A stretch of DNA of 64,000 nt from Paenibacillus guangzhouensis. GTDB taxonomy: Bacteria; Bacillota; Bacilli; Paenibacillales; Paenibacillaceae. The stretch is from NCBI RefSeq assembly GCF_009363075.1, contig NZ_CP045293.1, positions 6,495,006-6,559,005 on the forward strand, in the 5' to 3' direction. Below, one piece after another: positions 13,845 to 52,005 of this stretch (the stretch's first letter is position 1; the number at the start of each line of letters is the position of its first letter). The translations under genes were made by a program, and so were the position numbers. The notes under the pieces were generated by a model. That model worked only from the letters and a program-made list of their open reading frames with translations, had not been told where the DNA came from and did not search any database.

Positions 13845-13987
13845 TTGACAAAAACGAATAAAAACTATGTCGAAAAATGTAGAAAAATGGTATGATGCTG
13901 AAATGCATCACGATGTGCAGCAGTACGGAGGGAAATACGCCTCCATTTTTTAATAGATTGGGAGAATACATAGGGGGAATCGATTGT
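13845..13987 (+). promoter_or_regulatory. Promoter and structured leader of the SLH surface-protein gene
   Basis: TTGACA at 13845-13850 with TATGTC at 13866, or an extended -10 TGGTATGAT at 13888-13896, can serve as promoter. Two hairpins follow before the start codon: TGCTG...CAGCA (13896-13922) enclosing GCATC/GATGT, and GGAGG...CCTCC (13927-13944) followed by ATTTTTT, which looks like an intrinsic terminator placed 37 bases before the ATG. Then AGGGGG at 13972 is the ribosome site. This could be an attenuator, but the first stem is only transcribed if the upstream promoter is the real one. Confidence 0.5.
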
Positions 13988-16900
13988 ATGCGTTCAAAGT
14001 CAATGAAGCACAGAGCGTCTGGGCAGAAAGGGGTGGCGGGTTACACGAGAATGAAGCGTGGACTGAGTCTGTTTCTAGTGCTGGGACTGATATTTCCGCT
14101 CGTAAGTATGCTAGTAATGCCCGAGACTGCGCAGGCTGCGACTTCTGTGGTTGTTAAAGAGCAGAATGAGGCAGCGACCGGCGTGTTAACCAGTGTTGCA
14201 TTCGGGAATGGGAGATTTGTTGCCGTCGGGAGAAACCGAAGTATCTCGACCTCAGACGATGGAGTAAAATGGACAGTCGTTCCGAGGGATGTTAGCGCTC
14301 CGACATTCAAGACCGTCGTGTTCGCGAACGGTAAATTTGCAGGGATTGATGGCACGACGACCAAGGTGTACATCTCGACGGATGGAAGCGATTGGAGTGC
14401 GCAGGAGGTTGGGATTGTTCCTGCTAAGATTAAAGTCGCGAACGATCGTTTCTTTATATGGCAATCTTCATACGTACCAGGATCGAATCCGCCTGTCTAT
14501 GACGTGAAATTGTACGCGTCCCAGAACGGCGTCGCTTGGTCCGACACGAAAATAAAGCATACAGGATCATCGCCGATCCCTGGAATGCAGGATATTACAG
14601 ATATTACGTATAACGGATCGAAATACATCGTATCTGCGTTGACGGCAACGTTCTATTCCTCATCGGATCTACAGAACTGGTCGACGAATACATTAACGGA
14701 CATCGTTCTTAATCAGTATGATTCCATGTGGCCGAACATGAATAATGTCATCTACCTGAAGGATCGATTCTTTACCTATACCGGAGCCACGATGGACGGG
14801 AAACCGAAGCTGTTCACATCGACCGACGGCGGTAGTTGGTCCACGAACTCATCCTGGAATAACGCTCCGTTCTCAGGCGGTGCGGCTTTGAATAACAAAT
14901 ATATTCTGCTCGGCACCGGGAAGCTCTATGTTTCCAATGACGCCGCCCCGCTGGATTTCAATCAATGGACGACGATTGATCTTACCCCTGCGGTGAGCTT
15001 TGATAGTATCGCGTATGGCAATACCAAATACGTTGCTTCCAGCAGCAGCGGGATTTTCGTCTCCTCCGATCTAGTAAAGTGGAGTAATGTAAGTGCGAAC
15101 CTGAAGAGCATTACCGCGGACACCAATGGCAACTATGTTGCTGTAGCGAACAATGGGTCTTATGGTTCGATTTATCAATCGACGGATGCATCTAGTTGGA
15201 AGGAGGTCACGCCATCTCAAGTTCCGGGGTTGAACGCAGTAACATACGGCGGGAATGGCTACGTTGGCGTTACCAATACCGTCTCAGGCGGTAATGCCAA
15301 GGCGCTTGTATCGTCTGACAGTACGACTTGGGCCTCGAAAGATACCGGAATCAAAGCACGATTAATGGGTGTTGCATATGGTGCAGGTTTATATGCGACA
15401 GTCACTTATACTGGAGACATCTATACATCAACGGATGGTTCGTCTTGGACTTCAAGGTATAGCAATGCCAATTATCGATTTAACACAATTGCATTCGTGA
15501 ACAATCAATTCATTGCGCTTGGCACCAAGTATGAGAGTGGCAAGGCAAGTGGCATCGTCATTGCCAAGTCTTCGAATGGAATCGATTGGGGTACGCCTGC
15601 CGAAGTGAACAAGCCAGACACGAATATGACAGGGATAACCTATAACGGCAGTACATATGTAATGGTAGGTTCCTCTACGCTTAGTGCAGGTCCGGGTTGG
15701 ATTTTAAAATCTACGGATTTAACGAACTGGCAGGATGTTACGAGCAATCCAATTCGATTCAATTCGGTACAAGCTGGAAGCGGCATTTTGGTGGCTGTGG
15801 GCAGCAGCGGAGGCGTGTTTACGTCCGTTGACGGCGACATTTGGATTCCGGGTGGGTCGAAATTAACCTCCAATCTTACAAGTATTCTCTTTGAGAAGGG
15901 CAGCTTCAAAGTCGTCGGTGATAATTTCTCTAAAATGATTATCATTCCGCCTGCAGTAGGCGCGCAGAGCGTTCAGGCATCCGCTGCGACGTTGACGCCG
16001 ATCGCAGGCCAAGAGGATGAAATTACGTTGACGGTACTCGATTCGGAAGGAAATACAGACGTAAATTTTGACGGCAACAAAAACGTGACCGTCAATGGGG
16101 TGTTGCCTGCACCGGGCGGCACTTACGGCAGCTTCCATGGGAAGGAGCTAAGTCTATCGTCGACAATAGTATCCGTTCCTTTCTCGGATGGTGTGGCCAA
16201 AGCGCAATTGAAGCTTAACCGGGCGGATGCCCAGTCCATGGTGTTCCAAGTGGAAGGCGTCGCTGCTAATAAGACGAATGCATTGAACATCGTGGCTGCG
16301 CCAGGCAGTGCCGTAACGATGAATTGGTTGCTAGATATTACGGCTCCTGCCGTGAACGGCGGCATGTTCGCGAAGCAGCCGATCATTAAGCTGCAGGATG
16401 TCTACGGGAACATAGACAGAAATGATAACAGTACGGTGGTGACAGCATCGAAGAAGGATGCGGGCGATTGGACGCTGACGGGCACGCTAAGCAGGAAGGC
16501 GTCGGCTGGCGTCATCACTTTCGTTGGATTAGGAACAGCGAATGATGAAGCCGTCTCGGGCGCGCAGTTGCAATTCAAGGCCGCAGCTTTCCTGGATCTT
16601 GTGAGTACCGCGGTCAACCTTCCGGCGCCGGTGGGGGCGCAGAGCGCAACCGCTGTTGCTCAGAATGCGAACCCTGGCGTTGGTGTAGAGCAAGTTGTGA
16701 CAATGACGGTGAGCAATGCGCTAGGAAAGACGGATAAGAACTTCAACGGTGCGCATGACATAACGGTATCAGGCGTTGGGCAAGCGCCGGACGGTTCGTA
16801 TGGAAGCTTGGGCGGCGAGAAGCTGACCGCTCCTGATCATACGGTTCCGGTTACGTTCACAAGTGGCATAGCTACGGTGAAGCTGGCATTGAACAAAGCA

Positions 16901-19900
16901 GCAGCACAGTCGATTCAATTCAACATTGCTAACGTTGCGGTATCGAATACAAGTGCGATTAGCATTACGCCGGTTGCAGGTACAACAGCCTCCATGAAGC
17001 TAAGCCGAGATATCACGGCTCCGAGCCATAATGGCAGTGTGTTTGCGCAGCAGCCGATCATCGAACTGCTGGATGCATTCGGCAATATTAGCGTGAATGA
17101 TAACAATACGGATGTGACTGCGTCACAGAAAGATGCGGGCGAGTGGACATTGACGGGCGTTGTGACCGTAAAGGCCAAGAATGGACTCGTGACGTTCAAC
17201 GACCTAGGTGCGACCAATGATGAAGGCGTCACCGGTGCGCAGCTGCAATTCAAGGCAGCGGGCTTGTCCGATGTGTCGAGCGCCGCGGTGAATCTTCCGG
17301 CACCAGCAGGAGCGCAGAGCGTAACTGCAGCAGCGAATAACATCAATCCAAGCGTCGGCACGGATGTGGAAATTACACTTACGGTATTAAATTCGTTAGG
17401 ACATACGGACAAGACATTTAATGGTGCGCAGGATGTCATTGTGACAGGTTATCAGCAAGCGCCGAATCAATCCTATGGAAGCTTCAAGGGAACCGATTTG
17501 ACCGCATCGCCGAATACGGTCAGCGTCATGTTTGTGGATGGGGTAGCAAAGGCCAACTTGAAGTTGAATAAATCGGGTCTTCAATCAATTGTCTTCCGCA
17601 TTGTTAACGTTGCGAAGCAGGATACGAATTCACTTGATCTCGCATGGGTTGCAGGCAACACAGCATCGATGGAGCTTACGACGGAAATTGCGGCCCCGGC
17701 AAGCAATGGTGGCGTATTCGCAGCACAGCCAGTTATCACGCTGCTTGATAAGTACGGTAACGTGAACAAAGGCGATAACAGCACCATTGTCACCGCATCG
17801 CAGAAAGATACGGGGTTATGGACACTAACCGGTGACACAGCTGTAACAGCTAAGGCAGGGATCGTGACATTTACCAACTTGGGAACGGCCAATGATGCAG
17901 GCGTCACGGGCGCACAATTGCAATTCCAGGCAGCAGGCTTGACGGAAATCACGAGCGCGGCGGTAAATCTTCCAGCTCCAGCTGGCGCGCAGAGCGCTTC
18001 AGCAGTGGTCGAGAAGACGAACCCTGGCGTTGGTGAAGAGACCGAAGTGACGTTAACCGTCAAAAATTCGCTAGGACATACGGATACGACATTTGAAGGC
18101 GATCAGGATGTGACAGTAACGGGTTATATGCAGGCGCCAGCCGGTTCGTATGGCACATTCTACGGCACCGATCTAACGGCTTCGCCGAATACGATCCGTG
18201 TTCCATTCGTGAAGGGCGTCGCGGAAGCGAAGTTAATCTTACACAAATCTGATCCGCAATCGATTGGCTTCCGGATCGGCAATGTTGCAGCACCGGATAC
18301 CAATCCGTTGAACATAAGTCCAGTCGCAGGCAGCGCAGTATCCATGAAGCTTACATCCAACATTGCAGCGCCTGTGAATAATGGCAGTGCATTTGCGGCA
18401 CAGCCTGTCATCACGCTGTTTGATACGTACGGTAATGTGAGTGCGGGCGATAACAGCACGGTTGTAACCGCATCGATCAAGGATGCTGGGGCGTGGAAGC
18501 TGACAGGTACCGTGACGGCGACTGCCCAAGCGGGTATTGCCACATTCTCAGGGCTTGGCGCAACGAATGAAGCTGAAGTCATTGGAGCACAATTAGCATT
18601 CCATGCAGGTACGATGGCAGAAGTTCTGAGTGCAGTTGTGGATCTCCCTTGGCCATCGCTTACGGCACCAAGTATTGAGTCCGTAACAGCGGGCGACGGA
18701 CATGCTCTTTTGCAATGGAGTGCCATGTACGGATCGGTAAGTTACGCCGTATATCAGCGGACAGATGCCGAAGTCTATGATAAGGAGCTTGCAGTCGTAG
18801 ACAGCTCGGTTACGAACTATGATGCGGTAGGACTAACGAACGGCACAACGTATCATTTCGTGGTCAAAGCCATTAATCCAGGGGGCATAAGCATCGCGTC
18901 TAATGAAGTGAGCGCGACGCCGCAAGTGCCGGTACCAGGTGCGCCGATCCTGCAGCCAGCTGTTGCAGGGGATACTCAGATTCATCTGGAGTGGGGTCCT
19001 GTAGATGGGTCGACAGGTTATAAAGTGTATCAAAGTCAAACGTCAGGTGTATATGGCGCGGAAATTGCTTCCGTTGCGGGCGCAGTGTACAGCTACGATG
19101 TCACGGGGTTGACTAACGGGGAATCCTATTATTTCGTTGTGAAATCGACAAATCCAGGCGGAGACAGCGCAGCATCGAACGAGGTAAGTGCGAAGCCACG
19201 AACGGTTCCAGGAGCCCCAACCGATGTACAAGCGACGGCAGGTAACGGCCAAGCAACAATTACATTCAAAGCGCCAACGCATGATGGCGGAAGCTCGATC
19301 ACGGGTTATGAGGTGACGGTGTCACCGGGGAATACTGTTGTCGCAGGTGCGAATAGCCCAATCATCGTTACGGGTCTTGTCAACGGAACGACGTATTCTT
19401 TTACGGTTCAAGCCATCAATAGTGCTGGCAAAAGTGAGGCTTCAGCAGTATCCAATGCGGTTACGCCGTCAGCGCCTACGAGCGGTGGAGGGAATAACAC
19501 TTCCTATCAACCGAGCACACCTAGCCCGACCGACAATCTCGTGGATGTCATCATGAACGGGAAGGTTATCCATATCGGTAAAGTAACGAAGAAGCAAGTG
19601 AATGGACAGACCGTCACAACGGTGACATTGGATCAGAAGAAGCTGGAGGAAATGCTGGCAGCAGAGGGCCGCGGGGCAGTGATCGTGATCCCGGTATCGA
19701 ATTCCGATGTTGCGATCGGCGAGATCAATGGACAGGTGCTTCAGTTATTGGAAAAGGCAGGGGTGACCCTAACATTGCAGTCGGAGAATGGATCTTACAC
19801 CATCTCATCTAAGCAGTTAGGCGTAAGCCGGATTATAGATCGGTTTGGTAAGGATGTCGTCCTTCAAGATATTAAAATTCAGATCGAAATCGCCGTACCA

Positions 19901-20782
19901 AGCGCTGCCGTGTTGGACAAGATTCAGTCCGTAGCTGGCAAAGGGGGCTTTACGCTTGTAGGAACGCCGCTCCATTTCAGCGTCCAAGCATTCTACGGAA
20001 GTAAGAGCGTAACGTTGTCTACATTCGATTCGTACGTCGAGCGAACCATTCTTCTGCCTGATGGCGTGGATCCGAACCGAATCACAACTGCGGTTGTGAT
20101 CGAGGAAGACGGCAGTGTACGTCATGTGCCGACCAAAATCGTGCGCAAAGACGGCAAAGTTGCCGCTGTAATCCGCAGCCTCACGAATAGTACGTATGCG
20201 GTCATCTGGCATCCGACTGAGTTTAAAGATGTAGCGCAGCATTGGGCCAAAGATGCAATTACGGACATGGGTTCACGCATGGTAGTGAGCGGCGATGAGA
20301 AGGGGAAATTCAACCCAGATCAGCCAATTACGCGAGCCGAGTTCGCCGCAATGCTTGTACGTGGATTGGGATTGAAGCTAGAACAAGGGGAATCGGTGTT
20401 CAAGGATGTGTTGGCGTCTGATTGGTATCAGGAAGCAGTTCAGACAGCTTACGCGAATCATTTGATTAACGGTGATCCGAATGGTCAATTCCGTCCTGCA
20501 GCGCTCATTACACGGGAGCAGGCAATGGTCATGATCGCGCAGGCGATGAAGCTAACGGGATTAGGGGTTGACTTACCGACAGCGTCCGCAGAACAAGTGC
20601 TGCACGCGTTCAAAGATCAACAGCAAGTCTCCGATTGGGCAGCTCAAGGCATTGCATTGAGTGTGCAGGCCGGCATCATCACCGGGCGCAGTGCGACACA
20701 GCTTGCGCCGCAAGCGACAATGACGAGAGCTGAAGTTGCAGTGATCATAAAGCGACTGTTGCAGAAATCTAATCTTATCTAA
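13988..20782 (+). CDS. Giant SLH-domain surface protein with propeller, repeat and FN3 domains
   Basis: A 2264-residue secreted protein. A signal peptide precedes AQAA near residue 49. Residues about 55-655 hold repeated VAYGNGxFVAVGxxGxIxTSxDGxxW motifs, as in Asp-box/BNR beta-propellers. Residues about 657-1555 are four tandem units of about 225 residues, each with a GAQS opening, VTVxGxxQAPxGSYGSF block and AQPVITLxDxYGN block. Three FN3 domains follow (about 1558-1835), then a conserved pre-anchor region and three SLH domains (about 2078-2264: FKDVAQHWAK, FKDVLASDWYQ, FKDQQQVSDWA) that bind pyruvylated secondary wall polymer. I use ATG 13988 (AGGGGG upstream) rather than in-frame codons from 13892. 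No enzymatic domain is recognised; an adhesive or ligand-binding role is inferred. Confidence 0.9.
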   Translation: MRSKSMKHRASGQKGVAGYTRMKRGLSLFLVLGLIFPLVSMLVMPETAQAATSVVVKEQNEAATGVLTSVAFGNGRFVAVGRNRSISTSDDGVKWTVVPRDVSAPTFKTVVFANGKFAGIDGTTTKVYISTDGSDWSAQEVGIVPAKIKVANDRFFIWQSSYVPGSNPPVYDVKLYASQNGVAWSDTKIKHTGSSPIPGMQDITDITYNGSKYIVSALTATFYSSSDLQNWSTNTLTDIVLNQYDSMWPNMNNVIYLKDRFFTYTGATMDGKPKLFTSTDGGSWSTNSSWNNAPFSGGAALNNKYILLGTGKLYVSNDAAPLDFNQWTTIDLTPAVSFDSIAYGNTKYVASSSSGIFVSSDLVKWSNVSANLKSITADTNGNYVAVANNGSYGSIYQSTDASSWKEVTPSQVPGLNAVTYGGNGYVGVTNTVSGGNAKALVSSDSTTWASKDTGIKARLMGVAYGAGLYATVTYTGDIYTSTDGSSWTSRYSNANYRFNTIAFVNNQFIALGTKYESGKASGIVIAKSSNGIDWGTPAEVNKPDTNMTGITYNGSTYVMVGSSTLSAGPGWILKSTDLTNWQDVTSNPIRFNSVQAGSGILVAVGSSGGVFTSVDGDIWIPGGSKLTSNLTSILFEKGSFKVVGDNFSKMIIIPPAVGAQSVQASAATLTPIAGQEDEITLTVLDSEGNTDVNFDGNKNVTVNGVLPAPGGTYGSFHGKELSLSSTIVSVPFSDGVAKAQLKLNRADAQSMVFQVEGVAANKTNALNIVAAPGSAVTMNWLLDITAPAVNGGMFAKQPIIKLQDVYGNIDRNDNSTVVTASKKDAGDWTLTGTLSRKASAGVITFVGLGTANDEAVSGAQLQFKAAAFLDLVSTAVNLPAPVGAQSATAVAQNANPGVGVEQVVTMTVSNALGKTDKNFNGAHDITVSGVGQAPDGSYGSLGGEKLTAPDHTVPVTFTSGIATVKLALNKAAAQSIQFNIANVAVSNTSAISITPVAGTTASMKLSRDITAPSHNGSVFAQQPIIELLDAFGNISVNDNNTDVTASQKDAGEWTLTGVVTVKAKNGLVTFNDLGATNDEGVTGAQLQFKAAGLSDVSSAAVNLPAPAGAQSVTAAANNINPSVGTDVEITLTVLNSLGHTDKTFNGAQDVIVTGYQQAPNQSYGSFKGTDLTASPNTVSVMFVDGVAKANLKLNKSGLQSIVFRIVNVAKQDTNSLDLAWVAGNTASMELTTEIAAPASNGGVFAAQPVITLLDKYGNVNKGDNSTIVTASQKDTGLWTLTGDTAVTAKAGIVTFTNLGTANDAGVTGAQLQFQAAGLTEITSAAVNLPAPAGAQSASAVVEKTNPGVGEETEVTLTVKNSLGHTDTTFEGDQDVTVTGYMQAPAGSYGTFYGTDLTASPNTIRVPFVKGVAEAKLILHKSDPQSIGFRIGNVAAPDTNPLNISPVAGSAVSMKLTSNIAAPVNNGSAFAAQPVITLFDTYGNVSAGDNSTVVTASIKDAGAWKLTGTVTATAQAGIATFSGLGATNEAEVIGAQLAFHAGTMAEVLSAVVDLPWPSLTAPSIESVTAGDGHALLQWSAMYGSVSYAVYQRTDAEVYDKELAVVDSSVTNYDAVGLTNGTTYHFVVKAINPGGISIASNEVSATPQVPVPGAPILQPAVAGDTQIHLEWGPVDGSTGYKVYQSQTSGVYGAEIASVAGAVYSYDVTGLTNGESYYFVVKSTNPGGDSAASNEVSAKPRTVPGAPTDVQATAGNGQATITFKAPTHDGGSSITGYEVTVSPGNTVVAGANSPIIVTGLVNGTTYSFTVQAINSAGKSEASAVSNAVTPSAPTSGGGNNTSYQPSTPSPTDNLVDVIMNGKVIHIGKVTKKQVNGQTVTTVTLDQKKLEEMLAAEGRGAVIVIPVSNSDVAIGEINGQVLQLLEKAGVTLTLQSENGSYTISSKQLGVSRIIDRFGKDVVLQDIKIQIEIAVPSAAVLDKIQSVAGKGGFTLVGTPLHFSVQAFYGSKSVTLSTFDSYVERTILLPDGVDPNRITTAVVIEEDGSVRHVPTKIVRKDGKVAAVIRSLTNSTYAVIWHPTEFKDVAQHWAKDAITDMGSRMVVSGDEKGKFNPDQPITRAEFAAMLVRGLGLKLEQGESVFKDVLASDWYQEAVQTAYANHLINGDPNGQFRPAALITREQAMVMIAQAMKLTGLGVDLPTASAEQVLHAFKDQQQVSDWAAQGIALSVQAGIITGRSATQLAPQATMTRAEVAVIIKRLLQKSNLI
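15958..18655 (+). repeat. Four tandem ~675-bp coding repeats inside the SLH protein gene
   Basis: Units begin near 15958, 16636, 17311 and 17986, each opening with GCGCAGAGC (GAQS) and closing near a leucine-proline-(ala-)pro sequence. The spacing is about 675-678 bases (225 codons). The later units are more alike than the first, suggesting relatively recent duplication. Such arrays can change copy number by recombination. Confidence 0.85.
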
Positions 20783-40007: not shown

Positions 40008-40097
40008 GTGATTATTCATCTAGGCATATAGAACTAGGTAAGCTATAATGCTGAGAGATTAATCCAATGATATCCAAAAATGGAGGAGAATCGATCG

Positions 40098-40535
40098 ATG
40101 AAACATCTAAAGTCATTATTGATGGTCTGTCTTACTATCGTGCTAATCCTTTCTTTATCGAACGTAGCGCTCGCGAAGTCATCCAAGTCAACCTTAAAAA
40201 GCTATAAAATTACGTTCGTCAGTGCGAAATTGGTAGAGAACAACCATGTGGGGAACGAATGGAGCACAGGCGCGGAAGTGAATGGTCAAGCGATATCCGT
40301 AGGGAAGAGCAAGACATTGAAACTGAAAGATTCAGATATGATAATACTGACTGCTACAGCCATCGAAGAGGACAAAGTGCCAGATGAAGGGACGGAATCG
40401 GAAGAAGTTGAGGTTAGTTCATTAACGAAGCAGAAGACGACCAGTAAAATCAATGTAATGGTGACTGAGAATCGTGGAAGATACTCTGGTAATACGGCAA
40501 CGTGGACGTTTATGTTTAAAATCGAGAAGTTATAA
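40098..40535 (+). CDS. Secreted protein of unknown function
   Basis: A 145-residue protein with a clear signal peptide (MKHLKSLLMVCLTIVLILSLSNVALA, cleavage after ALA). The mature part is lysine- and threonine-rich, starts KSSKSTLKSYKITFVSAKLVENNHVGNEW and looks beta-rich (alternating VSSLTKQKTTSKINVMVTEN, TATWTFMFKIEKL). I do not recognise the family. GGAGGAG lies 10 bases before ATG 40098; an ATG at 40080 would place that site inside the gene. It stands alone and ends at a terminator immediately before the first 51-bp repeat array. Confidence 0.75.
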   Translation: MKHLKSLLMVCLTIVLILSLSNVALAKSSKSTLKSYKITFVSAKLVENNHVGNEWSTGAEVNGQAISVGKSKTLKLKDSDMIILTATAIEEDKVPDEGTESEEVEVSSLTKQKTTSKINVMVTENRGRYSGNTATWTFMFKIEKL

Positions 40536-40541
40536 ATATTA

Positions 40542-40571
40542 GGGATATCCCGGGTGGGATGTCCCTTTTTT
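40542..40571 (+). terminator. Terminator before repeat array 1
   Basis: GGGATATCCC / GGGATGTCCC stem with one G-U pair, followed by T6. Confidence 0.85.
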
Positions 40572-40591
40572 ATTATAGTACAAGATGAGCA

Positions 40592-41151
40592 AATAACTGC
40601 AAAAAAAGCAGTTATTACGCACAAAGTAGCGCGTACGCTCCAAAATAACTGCCAAAAAGCAGTTATTTTGCTCAAAGAAGCGCCCGCGTCTCAAAATAAC
40701 TGCCAAAAGGCAGTTATTTTGCTCAAAGCGGCGCCCGCGCCCCAAAATAACTGCCAAAAAGCAGTTATTTCGCTCAAAGAAGCGCCCACGCCTCAAAATA
40801 ACTGCCAAAAAGCAGTTATTTCGCTCGCAGCAGCGGCTGCTACCCCAAATAACTGCAAAAAGGCAGTTATTTCGCTCTCAGTAACGCGTGCGCCCTAAAA
40901 TAACTGCCAAAAAGCAGTTATTTCGCTCAAAGAAGCGCCCACGCCTCAAAATAACTGCCCAAAAGCAGTTATTTCGTTCAAAGAAGCGCGTGCGTCTCAA
41001 AATAACTGCCAAAAGGCAGTTATTTTGCTCAAAGCGGCGCCCGCATCTCCAAATAACTGCCAAAAGGCAGTTATTTCGCTCAAAGTAGCGCCCACGCCCC
41101 AAAATAACTGCCAAAAGGCAGTTATTTCGCTCAAAGTAGTGCCCGCGCCCC
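40592..41151. repeat. Tandem array 1: 11 units of a 51-bp palindrome-bearing repeat
   Basis: Units begin at 40592, 40644, 40695, 40746, 40797, 40848, 40899, 40950, 41001, 41052 and 41103: one step of 52 bases, then nine of exactly 51. Each unit starts with AATAACTGC, an A-rich loop of six to eight bases and GCAGTTATT, able to form a 9-bp hairpin, followed by a 27-base segment such as TCGCTCAAAGAAGCGCCC then (A/G)CGCCTCAA. Hairpin halves are almost invariant; the 27-base segment varies mildly. Because 51 is a multiple of three, several reading frames stay open, but no ribosome site or codon pattern supports a gene. It is not a CRISPR, since the intervening segments are similar to each other. 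Confidence 0.93.
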
Positions 41152-41283
41152 ACAAATCTACCCCGATTAGCCGTATGCTTCCCAACAACCTCATCCTATC
41201 AATTTAACTCTCGCCACCCCGCCTCGACGAGTGCTAGAATGCAAATGAGAAGCGAACAATTTTACCAAAATGGGGTGTAGACG

Positions 41284-49860: not shown

Positions 49861-51207
49861 TTGGAACAGCAGCAGCCGAACAAACCGCAGCTAATCGTCG
49901 GGGTGAATGAAAAGATTGGCCCTGTCAAAGCGCTATTGTTAGGATTACAGCACGTATTAGCGATGGATTTGTATATCGCGCCGATCATTATTGCAGGGAT
50001 TTTATCGTTAAGCAACAGCAATGCATCCTTCTTTATTCAAATGTGTTTCTTCGCGACAGGGATCGCGACTTTGATTCAGACGGGGATCGGATTGCGTCTG
50101 CCGGTTGTTCAAGGCCCATCCTATGTACCGATTGCAGCGATTGGTGCAATTGGCAGCAAACTCGGTATGGGGGCAATGGCTGGAAGCTTGATTCCAGGGG
50201 CATTGATCGTCATGCTGCTCGGCTTGCCACTGAAATGGTTCGCCAAAGCGGTTCGTAAATTCATTCCGCCGCTTGTCGGGGGAACGGTTATTCTGATTGT
50301 GGGTATTGGCCTAATGCCAGTTGGCTTAGGAAATGTATATCATGCGAAAGGTGAGCTCGGCACGAACATTCTGATCGGTGCTGTCTCAGCGATCGTGCTT
50401 GTCATTTGTATTCTTCTTGGACGTAACGCGAAAGGGCTAGGAACGTTCTTCCGCCTGATTTCGGTTATCGTTGCGATTGTCGCAGGCATCATCACGGCAT
50501 CGTTGTTCGGCGCAGTTGATTTTTCCCCGGTGAAAGATGCTGCTTGGTTCTCTTTCCCGAAATTGTTCCCATTCGGAGCGCCTGTGTTCGATATTAGCGC
50601 CATTCTTACGATGGTATTCGTATACTTCATCGTCTTGATCGAGACGACAGGAACTTGGTTCGTTATCTCTTCCGTAACAGGTGAGGAGTTGACGAACGAA
50701 CGCTTGAACCGCGCATCCTTCGGTGAAGGTCTTGGATGCTTTGTTGGTTCATTGTTCGGCGGTACGCCAATGACGGGTTATTCTTCGAATGCCGGTCTGA
50801 TCGCGATTACGGGTGTTGGCAGCCGGATGGCGATTATGGCAGGTGGCGGTATTCTTGTTCTGCTTGGCTTAATGCCGAAGCTGTCCGCATTGATTACTTG
50901 TATTCCAGAGTCCGTGATCAACGGTATCTTCTGTATCGTCTGCGTCGCGATTGTCATTAACGGTCTAAAAGTTATCCAGCACGTTGTGCTAGATGACCGC
51001 AACATGATGGTCATTGGGATTCCGGTATTGCTGACGATTGCGATTACGGTGCTTCCAAAAGGTGCAACGGACGGATTGCCTGACTTCGTCAACTATGTGT
51101 TGTCTTCAGGCTTGACGGTAGGTGCGCTTGCGGCGGTATTACTGAATCTGCTGATTCCGAATCACAAAGAAAAACCAGCTGCGGCTTCGAAGCAAGAGGT
51201 CGCGTAA
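49861..51207 (+). CDS. NCS2 uracil/xanthine permease
   Basis: A 448-residue nucleobase:cation symporter of the NAT/UraA-UapA branch, with 14 predicted membrane segments. Diagnostic blocks are GLQHVLAMD (the QH motif of helix 1), VQGPSYVPIAAIGAIG, VLIETTGTW (helix 8 motif with the substrate-binding glutamate), and FGGTPMTGYSSNAGLIAITGVGSR (helix 10, normally carrying the second substrate residue). The sequence fits uracil or xanthine uptake; specificity is not resolved. TTG at 49861 follows GAGAGGA by about 9 bases. It diverges from the Rieske oxygenase gene and ends at a terminator just before repeat array 2. Confidence 0.92.
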   Translation: MEQQQPNKPQLIVGVNEKIGPVKALLLGLQHVLAMDLYIAPIIIAGILSLSNSNASFFIQMCFFATGIATLIQTGIGLRLPVVQGPSYVPIAAIGAIGSKLGMGAMAGSLIPGALIVMLLGLPLKWFAKAVRKFIPPLVGGTVILIVGIGLMPVGLGNVYHAKGELGTNILIGAVSAIVLVICILLGRNAKGLGTFFRLISVIVAIVAGIITASLFGAVDFSPVKDAAWFSFPKLFPFGAPVFDISAILTMVFVYFIVLIETTGTWFVISSVTGEELTNERLNRASFGEGLGCFVGSLFGGTPMTGYSSNAGLIAITGVGSRMAIMAGGGILVLLGLMPKLSALITCIPESVINGIFCIVCVAIVINGLKVIQHVVLDDRNMMVIGIPVLLTIAITVLPKGATDGLPDFVNYVLSSGLTVGALAAVLLNLLIPNHKEKPAAASKQEVA

Positions 51208-51214
51208 TAGGAGA

Positions 51215-51245
51215 AAGGCTTGGCGTAGGGGCCAAGCCTTTTTTG
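51215..51245 (+). terminator. Terminator before repeat array 2
   Basis: AAGGCTTGG / CCAAGCCTT perfect stem followed by T6. Confidence 0.93.
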
Positions 51246-51285
51246 TGTTTTAGATGGGGGAGTGCTAGTATGCGCGCATGTGCGG

Positions 51286-51924
51286 AATAACTGCAAAAAA
51301 GCAGTTAATCGGTGAGAAAGTAGCTCGGATGTGCGGAATAACTGCAAAAAAGCAGTTAATTGGCGTGAAAGTAGCTCATGTGTGCGGAATAACTGCCAAA
51401 AAGCAGTTAATTGGTGGCGAAAGTGGCTAATTTGTGCGGTATAACTGTCAAAAAGCAGTTAATTGGCGTGAAAGTAGCTCGTGAGTGCGGAATAACTGCA
51501 AAAAAGCAGTTAATTGGCTGGAAAAGTAGCTCATGTGTACGAAATAACTGCAAAAAAGCAGTTAATTGGCGCGAAAGTAGCTCGGATGTGCGGAATAACT
51601 GCAAAAAAGCAGTTAATTGGTGGTAAAGTGGCTCGCGTGTGCGGAATAACTGCCAAAAGGCAGTTAATTGGTGGGAAAGTAGCTCGTATGTGCGAAATAA
51701 CTGCCAAAAAGCAGTTAATCGGCGGGAAAGTGGCTCGTATGTGCGAAATAACTGCCAAAAAGCAGTTAATCGGCGTGAAAGTAGCTTGTATGTGCGAAAT
51801 AACTGCCAAAAAGCAGTTAATTGGTGGCGAAAGTGTCTAATGTGTGCGAAATAACTGCAAAAAAGCAGCTAATTGGCGTGAAAGTAGCTAATGTGTGCGG
51901 AATAACTGCCAAAAAGCAGTTATT
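51286..51924. repeat. Tandem array 2: 13 units of a 51-52-bp palindrome-bearing repeat
   Basis: Units begin at 51286, 51337, 51388, 51440, 51491, 51543, 51594, 51645, 51696, 51747, 51798, 51850 and 51901. The period is 51 bases with three single-base expansions. The core is AATAACTGC, A-rich loop, GCAGTTAAT, so the perfect stem is 7 bp in most units and 9 bp in the last one, which ends GCAGTTATTCCGCTCAAAG like array 1. The 27-base segment (GGCGTGAAAGTAGCTCGTGT type) differs from array 1 but shares an AAAGTAGC block with it. It lies in a convergent intergenic region after a terminator. No ribosome site supports the frames that stay open through the array. Confidence 0.93.
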
Positions 51925-51966
51925 CCGCTCAAAGGAGGCGCCACCTCCAGTGCGCCCCTACGAAAA

Positions 51967-52005
51967 AAATGCCTAGTAAGCATCCATCTGCTCACTGGGC
52001 ATTTT
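51967..52005. terminator. Terminator of the ThrE gene pair
   Basis: AAAATGCCTAGTAAGC pairs with GCTCACTGGGCATTTT with few mismatches; it lies 3 bases beyond the minus-strand stop codon and gives TTTTTTT on that strand. Confidence 0.85.

Follow-up and report, generated by a model that had tools for sequence, protein, structure and literature searches.

Why does a Paenibacillus guangzhouensis chromosome carry the same palindrome eleven times in a row, and what might act on it? The window, by which we mean the whole stretch of DNA analysed (64,000 nucleotides, positions 6495006-6559005 of the 6.90-Mb chromosome), holds two such arrays (Table 1). The original prediction counted eleven units in array 1, with nine steps of exactly 51 bases. 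This count is confirmed by the palindrome starts (40594, 40646, 40697, 40748, 40799, 40850, 40901, 40952, 41003, 41054 and 41105), which give one step of 52 bp followed by nine of exactly 51 bp, and by TRF, which reports the tabulated interval with a period of 51, 11.1 copies and a score of 703. The loop is 7 bases long in the first unit and 6 in the remaining units, and AATAACTGC...GCAGTTATT is, like the arms, intact in 11 of 11 units.

Between each array and the + strand gene upstream of it lies a terminator-like hairpin. At array 1 this hairpin has an 11-pair stem and a T tail and lies directly 3' of the stop codon; the hairpin scan found 1 there against 1.9 expected in shuffles, so that the scan is weak alone, and 5 against 1.2 expected at array 2. 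Elsewhere in the window, positions 13892-20782 form an open reading frame of 2296 aa.

Table 1. Repeat arrays and neighbouring hairpins in the 64-kb window
Feature	Position	Strand	Remarks
Array 1: 11 units of 51 bp, first step 52	40591..41157	+	A-rich loops on + strand
11 dyads TAACTGC-N6/7-GCAGTTA of array 1	40594..41124	.	arms perfect in 11/11
Array 2 (sister array): 13 units, steps 51 or 52, dyad as in array 1, other spacer	51278..51950	+	
Terminator-like hairpin between upstream gene (40080-40535, +) and array 1	40541..40566	+	
Terminator-like hairpin between upstream gene (49861-51207, +) and array 2	51211..51244	+	
Terminator-like hairpin of convergent gene, far side of array 2	51975..51996	-	

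Tandem arrays in two Paenibacillus species

We searched for TAACTGCNNWWWNGCAGTTA, the palindrome with an A/T loop, in the source genome (G000), in Paenibacillus terrigena (G001, taken as DSM 21567) and in another genome of the genus (G002). The + strand gave 357, 70 and 0 matches, and the reversed pattern gave 0, 0 and 1. With 357 matches against none for the control in the source genome, the palindrome is not a product of chance. Chaining units within fetched stretches yielded 38 arrays (460 units) in the source genome and 19 arrays (127 units) in P. terrigena, the largest with up to 24 dyads (~1.2 kb). The source-genome stretches cover 182 of 188 and 256 of 274 A-loop matches of the genome, up to one mismatch, and some of its arrays are thus missed. 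Steps of 51 or 52 bp make up 397 of 422 in the source genome (306 of 51 bp, 91 of 52 bp, 25 others) and 100 of 108 in P. terrigena (96, 4 and 8). A coding repeat (51 = 3 x 17) is ruled out because 91 of the 422 source-genome steps are 52 bp. CRISPR is rejected as well: spacers here are alike inside an array and unlike between arrays, whereas a CRISPR has constant repeats and unlike spacers within one array.

Across the 57 array consensuses of the two species, the dyad and the period are constant and the spacers differ from array to array. AAA nearly always stands before the arms and an A/T-rich triplet after them, and GC is also common at +5/+6. Information content is 1.78-2.0 bits in the arm columns and below 0.75 bit in 23 of 25 spacer columns (+4..+28), in agreement with the earlier view that the palindrome is the best-conserved part; these values come from 575 of 587 units, those with other loop lengths being excluded, picked by their dyad with at most 4 arm mismatches, which favours the arms. 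Spacer identity averages 0.60 within arrays, 0.45 in 14 orthologous pairs and 0.34 in 616 other pairs, with arm identity at 0.94-0.96 throughout, in a gap-free comparison of units selected on their arms.

The orthologous pairs share both flanks between the source genome and P. terrigena, and a 15th pair shares one flank. Fourteen pairs at orthologous places indicate long residence. Four of the 19 P. terrigena arrays are without a counterpart among the located source-genome arrays. G002 has neither palindrome nor array. At its array-2 locus the same permease gene (90% identity) and the same convergent neighbour are separated by a 58-bp gap, in which we see by eye one hairpin-like repeat; this locus is an empty site. 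Copies of one or two units also occur outside arrays, in P. terrigena (L176 ~4154 and L177 ~4175, both behind genes) and in the source genome (L050 3329), and are possible seeds or remnants of arrays.

The four-dyad element and its helical rhythm

We extended the search to 394 genomes of 19 genera, taken as the family Paenibacillaceae and including P. terrigena. Exact TAACTGCNNAAANGCAGTTA occurs in 8 of the 394, with more than four matches only in the source genome and P. terrigena, and bulk tandem arrays were found in these two species only. The single palindromes of other genera have degenerate partners ~50-60 bp away. A relaxed pattern, TARMTGCANWWNTGCAKYTA, is present in 34/394 genomes and 11/19 genera (control, 1). 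At 40 loci in nine of these genomes we listed freely how far apart the sites near an exact match stand, up to a limit of 130 bp. The distances fell at 50 (27), 51 (40), 60 (2), 61 (27), 62 (3) and 111-113 bp (64), with another 15 scattered. The sites stand mostly in fours, spaced 51-61-51 bp, the first two loops A-rich and the last two mostly T-rich. A quartet search, which unlike the free listing fixes the distances by design, found 43 quartets in 42 of 68 loci versus none in 340 shuffled loci.

A geometry pattern made of three TGC-N6-GCA cores (one extended to CTGC) at fixed distances matches 75/394 genomes from 15/19 genera, with 0/394 for the reversed control; 319 genomes have no match. 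The fourth site, which lies outside the pattern, is present in 39 of 40 fetched places. Matches per genome range from 0 to 72 forward, with up to 70 reverse in one genome, and are not copy numbers, as forward and reverse matches may be halves of one element. The source genome has no match and P. terrigena one, which indicates that the tandem form prevails in these two species. We infer that the arrays are a tandem-amplified relative of the quartet and descend from it. The concern, raised in the original prediction, that arrays might be absent from related genomes therefore has a divided answer: bulk arrays are limited to two species, and the four-dyad geometry is widespread in the family. In two genomes a run of 9-base CAACACCCG repeats lies directly beside a quartet (L272 and L280), and an AGAGCA run adjoins another (L267).

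Both spacings are whole numbers of helical turns, with 51 = 5 x 10.2 bp and 61 = 6 x 10.2 bp in the quartets of relatives. The idea that the palindromes lie on almost the same side of the helix is thus borne out, and by a second spacing as well. The A/T fraction peaks ~10.5, 20.5, 30.5, 40.5 (50.5) bp from the dyad centre and dips between, and this rhythm runs in phase with the dyads through linkers that vary in sequence. At a period of 10.2, the spacer A/T amplitude is 0.166 in 37 source-genome arrays and 0.165 in 17 P. terrigena arrays (shuffle maxima, 0.048 and 0.096). The 225 quartet linkers reach 0.203 versus 0.033, with a best value of 0.208 at 9.8 bp, and in 21 of 22 genomes their rhythm keeps step with the dyads. 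These linkers are short and period resolution is low, so amplitudes at 9.5-10.5 bp are alike. Part of the rhythm may be carried by common descent. The low conservation of the spacers, as first described, holds for their sequence, but they keep an A/T rhythm, close to one helical turn in period, that had gone unnoticed.

A/T runs at the helical period are a mark of curved DNA, and the array DNA is probably intrinsically curved according to a wedge model, whose output is a prediction only. When 153-bp windows across the 64 kb are ranked by predicted curvature, each of the top 15 overlaps one or other of the two arrays. Predicted curvature exceeds the 95th percentile of shuffles in 52 of 52 sufficiently long arrays; of the 75 quartets, 91% surpass the 95th percentile computed from their flanks, and 75% surpass that computed from shuffles.

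Arms, neighbours and carriers: weighing the explanations

Gene contexts were taken from a crude, purpose-made ORF caller. Read along the A-loop strand, 31/38 source-genome and 16/19 P. terrigena arrays have a codirectional gene upstream, divergent gaps hold one array in each (1/38 and 1/19), and convergent gaps outnumber divergent ones 18 to 2. Of the 75 quartets, 37 are in tandem gaps, 25 in convergent and 5 in divergent ones; 7 overlap an ORF of at least 150 aa and 1 is at an edge. In the source genome dnaA is at 5.377 Mb, and 32 of 38 arrays are leading-strand oriented by the fork direction expected from dnaA. In convergent gaps, used since gene direction cannot decide orientation there, this is true of 12 of 13 arrays (two-sided binomial, 0.003). 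The largest array-free stretch among located arrays spans 2.154 Mb (343-2497 kb) and includes the point opposite dnaA (~1.93 Mb, reckoned from dnaA). The gap itself is drawn from position-sorted exact matches covering that stretch, and its P value is 3.7e-5 for 38 random points and 4.4e-3 for 24 clusters.

We compared arm pairing at 300 sites from 75 elements in 22 genomes, with seven duplicate loci and L352 dropped. Watson-Crick pairs numbered 156 at -1/+1, 141 at -2/+2, 208 at -3/+3 and 185 at -4/+4, against within-genome shuffle means of 167.2, 146.5, 202.3 and 199.2. Pair -5/+5 was raised (232 vs 221.5, reached by 6/500 shuffles), and pairs at -6 to -8 were at shuffle level; since copies within a genome are related, these shuffle counts cannot be taken as probabilities. 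In an initial set of 144 sites, for which shuffling ran across genomes, there was a small excess at the variable pairs 3/18 (76 vs 69.8) and 4/17 (64 vs 56.8) and a clear one at 8/13 (120 vs 106) and 1/20 (120 vs 116.2). In the arrays, distinct one-sided arm changes fell into A-C (34), G-U (26) and other (41), with no G-U excess, and pairing was restored in 2 of 6 two-sided changes. That the arms hardly covary is evidence against selection for RNA or single-strand hairpins, and the half-sites appear to be mainly two independent copies of a recognition sequence. Uncompensated arm mutations, which the original prediction had named as a test, were thus found; they speak against hairpins and leave a DNA site of two independent half-sites unrefuted.

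An array of RNA hairpins in read-through transcripts, one of the roles first proposed, would suit the strong predicted fold of five units (z -9.8) and an orientation mostly along the upstream gene. The arms offer no useful covariation, however, G-U changes do not exceed A-C changes, and a terminator-like hairpin stands before each window array; linker length is kept and linker sequence is free, and Rfam 15 has no match at gathering score in the window or in ten loci of relatives. We consider this role very improbable. Hardly more credence is due to a repeat of REPIN/RAYT type acting through single-stranded hairpins: extragenic dyads, inverted pairs, constant spacing and arrays oriented by chromosome arm would agree with it (PMC3116915), but the same lack of covariation counts against it and neither GTAG nor CGTC lies beside the stem. 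The matching transposase domain, Y1_Tnp (PF01797), was found in 5 of 12 carriers tested and was absent from the other seven, namely P. terrigena and G012, G013, G115, G125, G301 and G349; among the five is the source genome, whose Y1 transposase remnant is split over two frames (G000:C1:2220747-2221102). A neutral minisatellite grown by slippage would account for units more alike within arrays than between them, but leaves unexplained one period with different spacers in 57 arrays and a 51-61-51 geometry in 15 genera, and seems to us scarcely credible. Sites for a partition or nucleoid-occlusion protein (ParB, Noc or a relative), comparable to sopC of plasmid F, are improbable too. Short tandem repeats with one dyad each resemble parS-F (PMC6238139), and the terminus-side gap resembles that of Noc sites (PMC7383237). 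Yet there are hundreds of dyads and most of the family is without them, though chromosome partition is general. The dyad is also unlike the known parS and Noc motifs.

The stronger rival holds that the repeat is a selfish, MITE-like nonautonomous element, with the dyads as transposase or recombinase sites and the arrays as by-products of amplification without host function. We judge this rather unlikely, though a serious contender. In one genome (G253) the quartets lie inside a MITE-like unit with inverted ends TTACTACTTAGGWCCC (L287-L293; clear in L287-L289, nested in L291), so their spread may be selfish, and some copies in G137 share longer flanks. At L308 (G105) and L322 (G150), a quartet has an IS200-type Y1 transposase gene within a few hundred bases, and other copies of the G150 gene have no quartet nearby. 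Copy number is patchy and G002 retains an empty site. Against this, inverted ends rise above the shuffle maximum in 0 of 29 elements scored in genomes other than G253, the G141 and G142/G144 copies cease to be similar near the outer dyads, the 14 orthologous pairs point to long residence, and selfishness alone leaves the helical rhythm of saturated linkers unexplained. The patchy distribution says that the element spreads and gets lost like a selfish repeat, and use by the host is still compatible with it.

Origins outside the family were also considered. A phage or plasmid origin was rejected after blastn of array 1 against phage and plasmid collections returned nothing. The exact palindrome pattern had 0 matches in IMG/VR, and six geometry matches there are without A/T flanks and were read as chance. 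Matches in Clostridia (at least 80 loci) stem mostly from a different dispersed element. That repeat (L055-L134; Clostridia, Ruminiclostridium MAG) has constant flanks of its own around AATAACTGCC-AAAA-GGCAGTTATT and an ...GAGGACACATTA end, is often near contig ends and looks like a separate mobile or terminator-like element.

Among the roles first proposed, a docking array for a dimeric protein and/or a chromosome-organising site fits best, with protein and function both putative. We think it somewhat probable that array 1 serves as docking DNA, helically phased and curved, for a putative dimeric protein, with an architectural role and with gain and loss of a selfish kind. Each unit would offer one dyad (two inverted half-sites, AAATAACTGC) per ~five helical turns, and each quartet four dyads at 5, 6 and 5 turns of 10.2 bp, arranged ->-> <-<-. 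A dimeric DNA-binding protein would occupy every dyad from the same face of the helix, and where transcription units have their 3' ends the DNA may be bent or wrapped to form a compact particle, serving as an architectural or supercoil-pinning site. We know of no protein that binds the dyads. Because gain and loss of the repeats among close relatives resemble those of selfish elements, any benefit to the host is probably modest and lineage-specific.

Tentatively, we also entertain a bolder possibility, in which the element would be a bacterial chromatin site of a new class. The four dyads, at 5-6-5 helical turns, and the continuous 10.2-bp A/T rhythm would wrap DNA round the putative dimeric protein in a sequence-encoded, nucleosome-like particle, polymerised in two species into arrays that mark gene 3' ends, follow replication and spare the region opposite the origin. 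To our knowledge, bacteria have so far offered no example of a discrete, copied DNA element in which protein-site-like dyads and a wrapping geometry are encoded together, and in the openly licensed literature we recognised no paper describing the element. A new kind would be arguable if the wrapping protein were found. Hundreds of versions with free linkers and fixed helical phase make a rule linking sequence, curvature and binding testable, and tandem expansion in two species beside a relative with an empty site lends itself to comparative study of 3'-end supercoiling and chromosome organisation.

Comparison with known systems

Among the extragenic palindromic repeats, we place the element in a new family, one of DNA elements that are interspersed and helically phased. 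The 190-bp repeats of Bacillus subtilis are described as distributed over the origin half, in the same orientation to the fork, and as a putative structural RNA; their length is near that of the quartet. Terminal inverted repeats, a mark of MITEs, are present on the G253 copies and rise above shuffles in 0 of 29 other scored elements, none of them an array of the source genome or P. terrigena.

The REP/BIME/REPIN repeats are alike in being high-copy extragenic dyads with inverted pairs, constant spacing and tandem arrays, oriented by chromosome arm, and BIME-2 binds gyrase (PMC3116915, PMC3733652, PMC2817692). Unlike REPs, the Paenibacillus element has a stem flanked by AAA and WWT with no GTAG/CGTC tag, as well as a 10.2-bp A/T rhythm and a 51-61-51 geometry common to many genera; unlike REPINs, its arms hardly covary and most tested carriers are without a Y1 transposase.

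In sopC/parS of plasmid F, twelve 43-bp tandem repeats carry 16-bp inverted repeats that bind ParB dimers (PMC6238139). The likeness is one of anatomy alone, tandem repeats with dyads, whereas the Paenibacillus arrays occupy ~40 chromosomal loci and have another dyad. Noc-binding sites are likewise many chromosomal dyads depleted near the terminus (PMC7383237). The Paenibacillus dyads form phased arrays and occur in few species, and their motif is a different one. A further parallel is A-tract periodicity, in which A/T runs are phased with the helix and proposed to lie at loop tips of supercoiled DNA (PMC3940949). Unlike such curved A-tract DNA, the Paenibacillus element is discrete and copied, with conserved dyads and a fixed length.
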